A stretch of DNA of 26,090 nucleotides. Origin: a virus. The position numbers and the translations under genes were made by a program. The notes under the pieces are model-generated. The model was given only the letters and a program-made list of their open reading frames with translations, did no database searches and was not told the DNA's origin. Location: positions 1 through 26,090 of IMG/VR virus record IMGVR_UViG_3300025102_005524. One strand, given 5' to 3'. Positions 22,710 through 25,729 of this stretch are shown in pieces (within the stretch, counting starts at the first letter, position 1; each line of letters begins with the position of its first letter).

Positions 22710-23033
22710 TCAGTCGCACGGCTGCACCTCCAGCCCCATGGCACCGCGCAGGTCGGCACCGGTCAGGCTGGCACCAGTGAGGTCGGCACCGTGCAGCCAA
22801 GCATCTCGCAGGTAGGCACCAGTGAGGTCGGCATCTCGCAAGTCGGCATCTCGCAAGTCGGCACCGTGCAGGTTGGCACCAGTGAGGTAGGCACCGTGCA
22901 GGTTGGCACCGTGCAGGTTGGCACCGTTCAGTTCCGCATCGCTCAGGTCGAGCGGCACCCCCAGCGCGGCGCACAGTTCGCGCGCTTGGTCGAGGTGTCC
23001 GCCCTTGACGAGTTCAGTCAGCTTTAGTCGCAC
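22710..23033 (-). CDS. Pentapeptide-repeat protein, about 107 aa
   Basis: After a helical N-terminus (residues 1-30, RLKLTELVKGGHLDQARELC) the protein is built of about 13 A(D/N/Y)LxG or A(D/N/Y)LxD pentapeptides from residue about 34 to 98, for example ANLHG, ADLRD, ADLTG. Such proteins form a right-handed quadrilateral beta helix; some (Qnr, MfpA) mimic DNA and bind gyrase, many have unknown roles. The start is uncertain: a GTG at 23033 shares ten bases with the preceding gene, and an earlier GTG at 23069 would add 12 residues. No good ribosome binding site is seen. It is flanked by 14-bp direct repeats. Confidence 0.75.
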   Translation of the reverse strand: MRLKLTELVKGGHLDQARELCAALGVPLDLSDAELNGANLHGANLHGAYLTGANLHGADLRDADLRDADLTGAYLRDAWLHGADLTGASLTGADLRGAMGLEVQPCD

Positions 23034-23039
23034 GGCTGC
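22712..23039. repeat. 14-bp direct repeats flanking the pentapeptide gene
   Basis: AGTCGCACGGCTGC occurs at 22712-22725 and 23026-23039. Each copy covers the last codons of a small gene (both proteins end QPCD), so the repeat may be a short recombination junction or a duplicated gene end. Confidence 0.75.
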
Positions 23040-23167
23040 GCCCCAGGGCCTCGGCCTGCACCGCTCCACGGCTGGAGGATGAACACCTCGTTGGCCTGGA
23101 GGTCGCCGGTCTCGGTGGTGATGGTCAGCGGCTCGGCCGCAGCGGTGGCAAGTAGCAACAAAATCAT
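23024..23167 (-). CDS. Tiny exported or periplasmic peptide, 47 aa
   Basis: The ATG at 23167 overlaps the stop of the preceding 80-aa gene (ATGA), which is the main reason to accept it. The product starts MILLLLATAAAEP, a very short signal-like sequence with a possible signal peptidase I site after AAA, followed by a small mature part TITTETGDLQANEVF and a Gly/Arg-rich end QPCD. No Cys lies in the signal, unlike the two lipoproteins elsewhere. Function unknown. Confidence 0.55.
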   Translation of the reverse strand: MILLLLATAAAEPLTITTETGDLQANEVFILQPWSGAGRGPGAQPCD

Positions 23168-23414: not shown

Positions 23415-24764
23415 CTATGCTTCGGTGAACCGCTGAGTCTGAGGCTCAAATTTAAGATACAGCGTCACCGTCTTGTGGTCGCGGTACTTTGCGACGATCA
23501 GCTCGGTGGTGTTGTGGCCGCACATGGGGTTGTAGTAGGCATCTCGGTAGACAAAGACGATGGCATGCGCGTCCTGTTCCCACTGGCCAGAGCCGCGCAG
23601 ATCCGAGAGCTGAGGGCGCTTATCAGCCCGCTTCTCACAGTCCCGATTGAGCTGTGCGAGGGCGAGGACGGGGATCTGTAGCTCCTTGGCCAGCGCGAGC
23701 AGGCCCTGACTGACTCCGCTCTGTCTCTCCTCGGTGGACTTGCCCGGGCTGCGGATAAGCTGCGCGTAATCGACCACGAGCAGCCGCAGCGGCTTGCCCT
23801 CTCGCTGTAGGCGGGTCGCCAGGCGCCGGGCCTTGCTGGCGATCATGTCGATGATCTGCGCTGGCTTGGTGTCGAGGTGGATGGGCAGGGCGGACAGCTC
23901 CGAGAGAGCAGACCGGGTTCGGCGCCATTCGTCGGCATCCATCGAGCCGTCACGCATGACAGCGGTGGGGACGCCAGAGAGCAGGCTGAGCAGCTTGCGC
24001 CCGATACCATCGGCCTCCATCTCAAGGTTGTAGACGCCGACGCTTTCACCGCGCTGCGCAGCGCTGAGGAGCACCTGACAGGCCAGCGAAGACTTGCCCA
24101 TGGCTGGCCGGGCTGGCATCAGGTAAAGCCGCCCCTTCTCCATCGCTGGCAGGACCGGAGCGCTGCGGCCCGTGTCGGGGTCTCTCTCGCGTCGGTCGAG
24201 CGCAGACACCCCCCACGCTACCCCTTGCGGCCTGCCGTCCTTGTAGGCGCTTTGACGGGCGCGGAGGTCGTCATACAGCAGGCGGGCGAGGCTGTCGCCG
24301 TCTGTCCAGGTGGTACTGCTGCCGGCTCCTCGAGCCAGACCCGAGAGCACCTGCTCGGCGCGTGCCTGTAGCCCATCGGGCTCGGTCTCCTGCCGGTAGG
24401 CCTCGACCAGCGCGGTGAGCTGCTGGAGGGCGTTGCGCCGGTAGGACAGCCCGACCAGCTCGCCGGCGTTGTGCGCGGCAAGGATGGGTGAGCAGTCGTC
24501 TGAGTAGCCCGACACATCGGCGAGGCTCGGGAAGTCGGCGCGGTCGGCTCTCAGGGCGATGCTCTCGACGACAGAGACCATGTCGGTAGGCTTGCGCGCC
24601 TCGATGCGGGCAGCCAGCCAGGCGAACAGGCGACCACGCCGCGGCCCCGAGAAATCGCCAGCGGTGAGGCCGGCGCTCTGCATGTCGGTGAGGGTGTCGG
24701 CCTCGATCATCAGGCACCCGAGGAGGTCACATTCCCATCGCTTGCTCTTGAGCAGATCAGACAT
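23415..24764 (-). CDS. dnaB: Replicative DNA helicase (DnaB-like), 449 aa
   Basis: The replisome helicase that unwinds the fork. The N-terminal domain (about 1-150) starts ECDLLGCLMIEADTLTDM. Motifs of the RecA-like domain are Walker A MPARPAMGKSSLA at about 217-229, Walker B LLVVDYAQLI at 328-337, AQLNRDCEKR at 370-379 and RGSGQWEQDAHAIVFVYRD near 390-408. The length matches DnaB. A longer open frame upstream (to 25172) is shadow of the initiator gene; the ATG at 24764 gives the MSDLLKSK start and overlaps the initiator stop by eight bases. Its neighbour is the probable loader or initiator. Confidence 0.93.
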   Translation of the reverse strand: MSDLLKSKRWECDLLGCLMIEADTLTDMQSAGLTAGDFSGPRRGRLFAWLAARIEARKPTDMVSVVESIALRADRADFPSLADVSGYSDDCSPILAAHNAGELVGLSYRRNALQQLTALVEAYRQETEPDGLQARAEQVLSGLARGAGSSTTWTDGDSLARLLYDDLRARQSAYKDGRPQGVAWGVSALDRRERDPDTGRSAPVLPAMEKGRLYLMPARPAMGKSSLACQVLLSAAQRGESVGVYNLEMEADGIGRKLLSLLSGVPTAVMRDGSMDADEWRRTRSALSELSALPIHLDTKPAQIIDMIASKARRLATRLQREGKPLRLLVVDYAQLIRSPGKSTEERQSGVSQGLLALAKELQIPVLALAQLNRDCEKRADKRPQLSDLRGSGQWEQDAHAIVFVYRDAYYNPMCGHNTTELIVAKYRDHKTVTLYLKFEPQTQRFTEA

Positions 24765-25680
24765 GAGACCCCCACGAGCGGACGAACATCGGCCGCACCC
24801 TGAACTGTAGTTCTCGGCTGTGCGTCTGGCAGAGCGCCGACCAGCGGCCAGGACCACCCAGCGCAGCGATGGCGCGGGTGATGGTGTCGGCATCGAGCGC
24901 GGGGATGTCGGCAGGGGTAGGCAGACGGCGAGAGCCCACGCGCCCCATGGCATCAATGATGAGGCTCCATACCTGCTCGGCGTCGGTGGCCGTCTTGGTG
25001 GTCGGCGCGATGCTGGCCAGGTCAAGGTAGCCGGGGAAGTTGGACGGGCGGAGGATGGTATCCACCGTGCATTTCGAGCGCAGCCAGACCGCCCGGTCAT
25101 GCTGCGAGGTCTGCCACCAGCGCCAGACGGTGACCAGCTCCTCGGCGGTGTGCTCCTTGAGTCGAGCACCAAGAGCGCGGCGCCGTCCGCTGGTCAACTT
25201 GAGGGCGCGGGCCTTGGGATTGGCCTCGGTCCTGATGGCTTCGAGCCGAGCCCAGATAGATGTGTAGTCCTGTGAATTTGTAGTCTGTAATTTCGCGCGC
25301 TCGCGAGCGGTCCGCTTCTCGTCCACTTCCGGTCCACTTGTCTTCTGTGTTGCAGGCTCTACCTGCTTAGCTTCGGTCCACTTCCGGTCCACTTCCGGTC
25401 CGCGATCGGTCCACTTCTCCAGCGAGGCCAGCGCATCGGCGCGCGCCTTGACGGTCCGCTGTCTGCTCTTGGTCAGCGTCCACGCCTCGACTTCAGCCAT
25501 CGAGGAGCGGGAGCCCTTCCGGGTGCGGTGGAACACCACCAGCCAGATGAGCAGGTAGGCGATGGCCCATGCCCGGCGCTGTGGTGTCGGTGCTTCGTAG
25601 ATGGCTTCTACCAGTCGCACAGGGACCGGGAGCCACTGCTCACCCATAGACGAGGACGAGCGCTTTGTGTTATTGTCCAT
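24757..25680 (-). CDS. Replication initiator or replisome organiser (lambda O-like layout), 307 aa
   Basis: The N-terminal part (about 5-75) contains PQRRAWAIAYLLIWLVVF and a winged-helix-like region (TLTKSRQRTVKARADALASL), as in phage replication initiators. Residues about 88-125 are encoded by iterons. The C-terminal part has RLKEHTAEELVTVWRWW and RSKCTVDTILRPSNFPGYLD, a pattern of DnaD/replisome-organiser C-termini. The gene precedes the helicase, as O precedes a loader in lambda. The ATG at 25680 is chosen for AGGA seven bases upstream; a longer start at 25728 would read through the inverted repeat. It probably binds the iterons inside its own gene and recruits DnaB. Confidence 0.72.
   Translation of the reverse strand: MDNNTKRSSSSMGEQWLPVPVRLVEAIYEAPTPQRRAWAIAYLLIWLVVFHRTRKGSRSSMAEVEAWTLTKSRQRTVKARADALASLEKWTDRGPEVDRKWTEAKQVEPATQKTSGPEVDEKRTARERAKLQTTNSQDYTSIWARLEAIRTEANPKARALKLTSGRRRALGARLKEHTAEELVTVWRWWQTSQHDRAVWLRSKCTVDTILRPSNFPGYLDLASIAPTTKTATDAEQVWSLIIDAMGRVGSRRLPTPADIPALDADTITRAIAALGGPGRWSALCQTHSRELQFRVRPMFVRSWGSHV
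25256..25417. other. Candidate replication origin: phased iterons and AT-rich stretch within the initiator gene
   Basis: Units of the 11-base form CGGTCCACTTC lie at 25374, 25385 and 25407, with a variant at 25396, and CGGTCCGCTTC, TCGTCCACTTC and CGGTCCACTTG lie at 25308, 25319 and 25330. Every unit falls on one 11-base lattice, with 33 unrepeated bases between the clusters. An 11-base period cannot come from protein repetition. Next to them, 25256-25292 has 12 G/C in 37 bases. Iterons plus an AT-rich element within the initiator gene is the lambda origin plan. Confidence 0.7.
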
Positions 25681-25691
25681 GCGTTGTCCTT

Positions 25692-25727
25692 TGGGGCGGA
25701 CCGGAATTCGAGAGCTGGTCCGCCCCA
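25692..25727. promoter_or_regulatory. 11-bp perfect inverted repeat before the initiator gene
   Basis: TGGGGCGGACC (25692-25702) pairs with GGTCCGCCCCA (25717-25727) around a 14-base loop. The arm GGTCCGC matches the iteron variant CGGTCCGC. On the plus strand a TTTTT run follows, so it could end plus-strand transcripts; on the minus strand it lies immediately before the ribosome binding site AAAGGA, so an operator or mRNA hairpin controlling the initiator is also possible. Confidence 0.65.
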
Positions 25728-25729
25728 TT

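Follow-up and report, generated by a model that had tools for sequence, protein, structure and literature searches.

A minus-strand gene in the 26,090-nucleotide stretch of viral DNA analyzed here (the window) harbors in its middle, ~260 bp past its start, seven 11-bp units with the plus-strand consensus CGGTCCACTTC, set on an 11-bp lattice at 25308-25417. We propose that this array is very probably an iteron origin embedded in the gene of its own initiator and read by the initiator's N-terminal domain. An embedded origin had been suggested in the initial annotation, and several lines of sequence evidence point the same way, namely module swaps among relatives, a correlation between iterons and N-domains, the adjacent DnaB gene and the annotated origins of known phages. 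Our computations establish the lattice itself, the selection acting on it at the DNA level, its interdomain position, its AT-rich and helicase neighbors and the joint inheritance of the N-domain and the iteron word.

Architecture of the array and its host gene

The unit starts initially listed (25308, 25319, 25330 and 25374, 25385, 25396, 25407) were all exact on recheck, and both clusters were independently recovered with a period of 11 by Tandem Repeats Finder (TRF). The units, whose coding-strand form is GAAGTGGACCG, follow each other at start-to-start steps of 11,11,11,44,11,11, i.e. in a 4+3 layout (Table 1). Counted from 25308 upwards they show 1, 2, 1 / 0, 0, 4, 0 mismatches to CGGTCCACTTC, the unit at 25319 being the one with two, and the unit at 25396 (CGGTCCGCGAT) being badly degenerate, with its first part alone retained. 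Elsewhere on the plus strand of the window, five scattered sites match the unit at <=2 mismatches. The proposal that the clusters are separated by a multiple of 11 stands for the window (44 bp start-to-start), Sf6, phage L and several contigs but is not a strict rule, because the swapped relatives nearest to the window, described below, have a gap of 43. Similarly, the sites lie on one face of the DNA, as had been suggested, only roughly and inside one cluster: across the whole array there is a drift of ~150 degrees. A turn of B-DNA takes ~10.5 bp, and since 11 bp exceeds this, each unit is rotated by ~17 degrees, which would favor a gently writhing assembly over a flat one.

Table 1. Positions of the origin-related features in the window
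Feature	Position	Strand	Remarks
Initiator gene	24757..25680	-	ORF list, orthologs L003-L005; 307 aa from ATG at 25680
Most of the N-terminal domain (presumed iteron-binding), exchanged part	25420..25632	-	30-55% DNA identity to L004/L005, versus 78-97% in the flanks
Iteron 1	25407..25417	+	CGGTCCACTTC; cluster adjoining N-domain
Iteron 2	25396..25406	+	CGGTCCGCGAT; degenerate
Iteron 3	25385..25395	+	CGGTCCACTTC
Iteron 4	25374..25384	+	CGGTCCACTTC
Inter-cluster spacer, 33 bp	25341..25373		32-33 bp in many relatives
Iteron 5	25330..25340	+	CGGTCCACTTG
Iteron 6	25319..25329	+	TCGTCCACTTC
Iteron 7	25308..25318	+	CGGTCCGCTTC
AT-rich stretch, presumed DNA unwinding element	25257..25293		67.6% A+T
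Conserved C-terminal domain	24757..25240	-	93-99% protein identity across four orthologs
Putative exchangeable origin-recognition cassette (N-domain, iterons and AT-rich stretch)	25240..25632		Sliding DNA identity; ends approximate
DnaB-type replicative helicase gene	23415..24764	-	Pfam DnaB_C 1.7e-63, PHROG 19 9.7e-67

The start of the initiator gene is preceded by a Shine-Dalgarno-like AAAGGA, and an alternative in-frame ATG at 25728 is possible. The helicase gene lies directly downstream, its start at 24764 giving an 8-bp overlap with the initiator. The 37-base AT-rich stretch that had been pointed out 3' of the array is indeed present and ranks in the top 0.05% of window 37-mers, in a contig of 64% G+C; almost every relative likewise has an AT-rich 30-mer after its iterons. 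The array encodes the linker between the two domains, as originally suggested, a region of low pLDDT (residues 93-139) in the model of the ortholog L004.

The C-terminal domain of the initiator gives a weak match to PHROG replication-initiation families. Its N-domain has no family match in Pfam or PHROG and is modeled poorly by AlphaFold (pLDDT about 40); for the whole protein, a Pfam search yielded no useful match and a PHROG search none to the DnaD-like helicase loader families (PHROG 2514/186). A profile search of PDB sequences returned nothing credible and Foldseek against PDB nothing below E 0.68. Lattice-bearing relatives appear to have a weakly HTH-like N-domain, with BFVD matches to HTH and replication proteins, and residues 34-91 of the L004 model align weakly to the HTH domains of FadR and of sigma region 4 (Z <= 4). 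From these relatives, whose structural matches are weak, the N-domain of the window may likewise be of the HTH type.

GC skew of the linear 26-kb fragment gave no informative signal, and scans of the window for Rfam families and tRNAs were empty. A perfect hairpin with 11-bp arms (TGGGGCGGACC ... GGTCCGCCCCA) occupies 25692-25727, between the upstream gene and the ribosome-binding site of the initiator; on the plus strand it is followed by TTTTT and is terminator-like, and in L004/L005 its stem is kept with a varying loop. It was considered as an extra iteron pair and dropped, because the stem persists when the iterons are swapped. A separate minus-strand ORF at 22710-23069 contains a 45-bp tandem repeat coding for a pentapeptide-repeat-like sequence (LHGANLHGAYLTGANLHGADL).

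DNA-level maintenance and breadth of the 11-bp lattice

The period of 11 is not divisible by 3, so that the reading frame shifts from one unit to the next (EKWTDRGPEVDRKWTEA). We generated 10,000 synonymous versions of the array region with the codon usage of the gene itself: the observed 95 matches at lag 11 plus lag 22 compare with a mean of 70.9 in recodings (z = 4.0), and 0/10,000 recodings of the same peptide reach that count, which bears out the earlier claim of selection on the DNA. Because no recoding attains the observed value, the lattice is maintained at the level of DNA rather than arising as a side effect of the encoded peptide. The same test on 61 further initiators gave p <= 0.01 for 56 of them.

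Further phage initiators were gathered by scans for period-11 triplets and by protein searches; many single-triplet matches from the pattern scans are not initiators and were left out. A lag-11 self-match score >=10 is reached by 37/43 non-redundant initiators and by 0/118 control ORFs, i.e. other ORFs of the same contigs. It is also reached by 44 of the 50 loci obtained through protein similarity alone, a set meant to limit circularity, though the search queries were themselves lattice carriers. These data bear on the alternative that the array merely reflects a repetitive linker, or is a functionless recent tandem duplication: 11 codons do span three units, making the peptide partly repetitive (EVDRKWT), but the period is out of register with codons, falls beyond all recodings and control ORFs, and recurs with unrelated sequences in many lineages. 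We accord such an origin of the array a next to negligible probability, since the recoding test, barring a serious flaw in its model, rejects both chance and protein-level repetition.

The iteron word varies from phage to phage and the step is constant, with 256 steps of 11 and 27 of 12 in a histogram that was seeded on lag 11 and is hence biased towards it. Two clusters are common: the window, type-B and HK022/Sf6/L groups have them at a distance of 43-44 bp, and the DnaD-like group, where a second one exists, at 66-68 bp. The known phage records contained no tblastn match to the window protein or to a type-B relative, and the synthetic periodic peptide EVDRKWTGSGP gave none as a query.

Several variants were seen beside the regular arrays. 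Three different DnaD-like initiators (L164, L165, L154) have a common spacing starting 12,12,67,12,12,11,11, their upstream cluster lying within the N-domain coding sequence and stepping by 12 rather than 11. A type-B relative (L134) has GTCCCGGTGA units mostly stepping by 12, with the usual 44-bp gap. L012, L035, L042 and L059 contain two triplets, 106 bp apart, made of TTGGACCAAAC-like units that step by 11 bp; being AT-rich and apparently outside a long ORF, these are probably a different element. An unrelated contig (L001), in which two units match, was set aside as a coincidental or unrelated hit.

Exchange of the N-domain together with its iteron word

A search of IMG/VR recovered three relatives of the window, of which L003 is 99% identical to it and retains the array. 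The other two, L004 and L005, have a C-domain 93-97% identical to that of the window, and the helicase gene is also common to them. DNA identity between the window and these two, measured in sliding 60-column blocks, is about 78-90% immediately before the gene starts and about 70-98% across the C-domain and the greater part of the helicase gene, and falls to 30-65% between ~25632 and ~25240. The low-identity block spans the N-domain, the array and the AT-rich stretch, which are replaced together in L004/L005: the iteron word changes from GAAGTGGACCG to GCGTACCAGAG, with the 4+3 units and the 11-bp steps kept and a cluster gap of 43 against 44 in the window. Conversely, L090 shares with L004 both the N-domain type and the GTACCA word, yet has a different C-domain, a comparison that concerns type B and not the window's own iteron word. 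Further swaps of N-domain and word with a shared C-domain are presented by Sf6 versus HK022/HK620 and by phiAT3 versus BH1. As judged from these alignments, the word and the presumed recognition domain are exchanged together as one cassette.

The same relationship emerges from a set of 53 non-redundant phage initiators: iteron similarity, once controlled for that of the C-domain, correlates with how similar the N-domains are (partial rho 0.43, 0/999 permutations), and its partial correlation with C-domain similarity is -0.04 (811/999 permutations). The iteron sequence, by this measure, tracks the N-domain and not the C-domain. An origin read by the N-domain is favored most strongly by this natural double dissociation, in which L004/L005 swap the N-domain and the word, and L090 swaps the C-domain. 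Phased direct repeats in general also serve partition or regulator roles, and the array might be composed of sites that chance to fall here and serve another protein, for instance one for partition or a nucleoid or initiator protein of the host. We hold this to be highly improbable, since a third protein leaves unexplained why the word changes exactly with this N-domain and stays when the C-domain alone changes. On the other side of the ledger, the bad degeneracy of the second unit weighs against an origin, as does the fact that the window type has one near-identical relative: beyond that near-identical contig, the window's own N-domain was found in no other viral contig, and in none of the genome contigs.

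A mechanistic proposal and its implications

The above observations lead to the proposal that the N-terminal domain binds to the seven units, with about one protomer per helical turn, the units being arranged in two phased clusters (4+3) with about three turns of spacer between them. Once assembled, the protomers would bend the array or wrap it, putting strain on the AT-rich stretch at 25257-25293, which would then open, upon which the C-terminal domain would recruit the DnaB-type helicase from the next gene. This model thus predicts physical binding, unwinding and loading of the helicase.

Many DNA-binding proteins use sites in their own genes, and the array could instead be an autoregulatory operator, through which the protein represses its own transcription or acts as a roadblock; the window being a 26-kb fragment, the true origin could then lie elsewhere on the genome. 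This is improbable given that the array is ~260 bp into the gene, that the AT-rich stretch is 3' of it in nearly all relatives, that a helicase gene is next both here and in HK620 and phage L, and that the array overlaps, by correspondence, the regions annotated as rep_origin in the Sf6 and HK620 records. Autoregulation and origin function are in any case not exclusive.

An embedded 11-bp origin is not new in kind, having been noticed before in lambdoid relatives. What may be new is the breadth of the lattice, the two-cluster geometry and the cassette exchange, of which we found no prior description; our literature search for 11-bp phage iterons, in which subscription coverage was thin, returned the phage L statement alone, and earlier descriptions may exist. 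A more general possibility, which we consider evenly balanced between holding and failing, is that a large share of the origins of temperate-type phages obeys one rule that has yet to be formulated. Under such a rule, asymmetric iterons, one per turn, would lie inside the initiator gene as two 11-bp-step clusters at a fixed distance (43-44 or 66-68 bp apart), and the N-domain, the iterons and the unwinding element would form a portable cassette, swapped among otherwise unchanged replication genes, with the word diversifying freely. This would allow the origins of many uncultured phages to be located from sequence alone, and each initiator N-domain paired with its target word would add to a training set for protein-DNA recognition. 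The natural swap pairs are suited to asking whether the N-domain and iterons alone set replication specificity and the incompatibility of co-infecting phages. There is also a structural question, namely how a monomer-per-turn assembly on asymmetric sites opens DNA in comparison with the longer, wider-spaced iterons of lambda.

Relationship to known replication systems

The array resembles lambda O and ori-lambda in that the iterons sit midway along the initiator gene, between the coding regions of its two domains, with AT-rich sequence 3' of them. The annotated lambda iterons are however 18 bp long and spaced by 20, 24 and 23, in agreement with the initial remark that lambda uses longer units, as against the period of 11 in the window, and lambda has the P helicase loader rather than a DnaB of its own. 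P22 gene 18/gene 12 likewise combines an internal-origin initiator with a following DnaB-like helicase gene and differs in having repeats of about 20 bp (PMC8022706). Lag 11 is absent from lambda O, P22 18, 80-alpha gp20 and TP901-1 Rep, for which the best lags are 20, 24, 30/15 and 15, respectively.

The unit sequence and the 11-bp spacing had initially not been recognized, but six 11-bp repeats in gene 18 of Salmonella phage L were published in 2020 as the likely origin (PMC8022706), and 11-bp lattices prove common in phage initiators. The closest relative of the array is hence the HK022/Sf6/phage-L type and not lambda. Phage L gene 18 (O-like), Sf6 gene 43, HK620 O and HK022 O have, as does the window, 11-bp direct repeats in two clusters in the initiator linker, and the steps of Sf6 and phage L (11,11,44,11) share its 44-bp start-to-start spacing. 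HK022, HK620, Sf6, phage L and Klebsiella Chronis all combine lag 11 with two clusters and then an AT-rich stretch, like the window, and the gene that comes next is a helicase gene or replication gene P; in HK620 and phage L this is a DnaB-like helicase gene, directly downstream as in the window. Within this group, Sf6/L and HK022/HK620 differ in N-domain and iteron word and have the C-domain in common. The replication genes of L and P22 are not exchangeable singly but are exchangeable as a region (PMC8022706). The window differs from phage L, Sf6, HK620 and HK022 in its iteron word and in having 4+3 units versus six, and its initiator has no detectable tblastn-level similarity to HK022/Sf6 O; the window and its relatives give weak PHROG replication-initiation matches.

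DnaD-like phage loaders or initiators (PHROG 2514, 186; Staphylococcus SA345, Lactobacillus BH1 and others) have an 11-bp lattice behind an N-domain unrelated to that of the window, followed by an AT-rich stretch that often codes for Asn/Asp; the records examined carry no origin annotation on these lattices. The 'bind' locus of a rolling-circle plasmid also has 11-bp direct repeats, in a different system. ORF20 of 80-alpha cannot be complemented in trans, from which its authors infer an embedded origin (PMC5499656), as we propose for the window, and the replication role of TP901-1 Rep, which contains internal repeats, has experimental support. The embedded arrays in these replisome-organizer genes, at L195:175-400 (80-alpha) and L197:3547-3800 (TP901-1), have periods of 30/15 and 15 rather than 11, and by their geometry appear to be a second class beside the 11-bp one.
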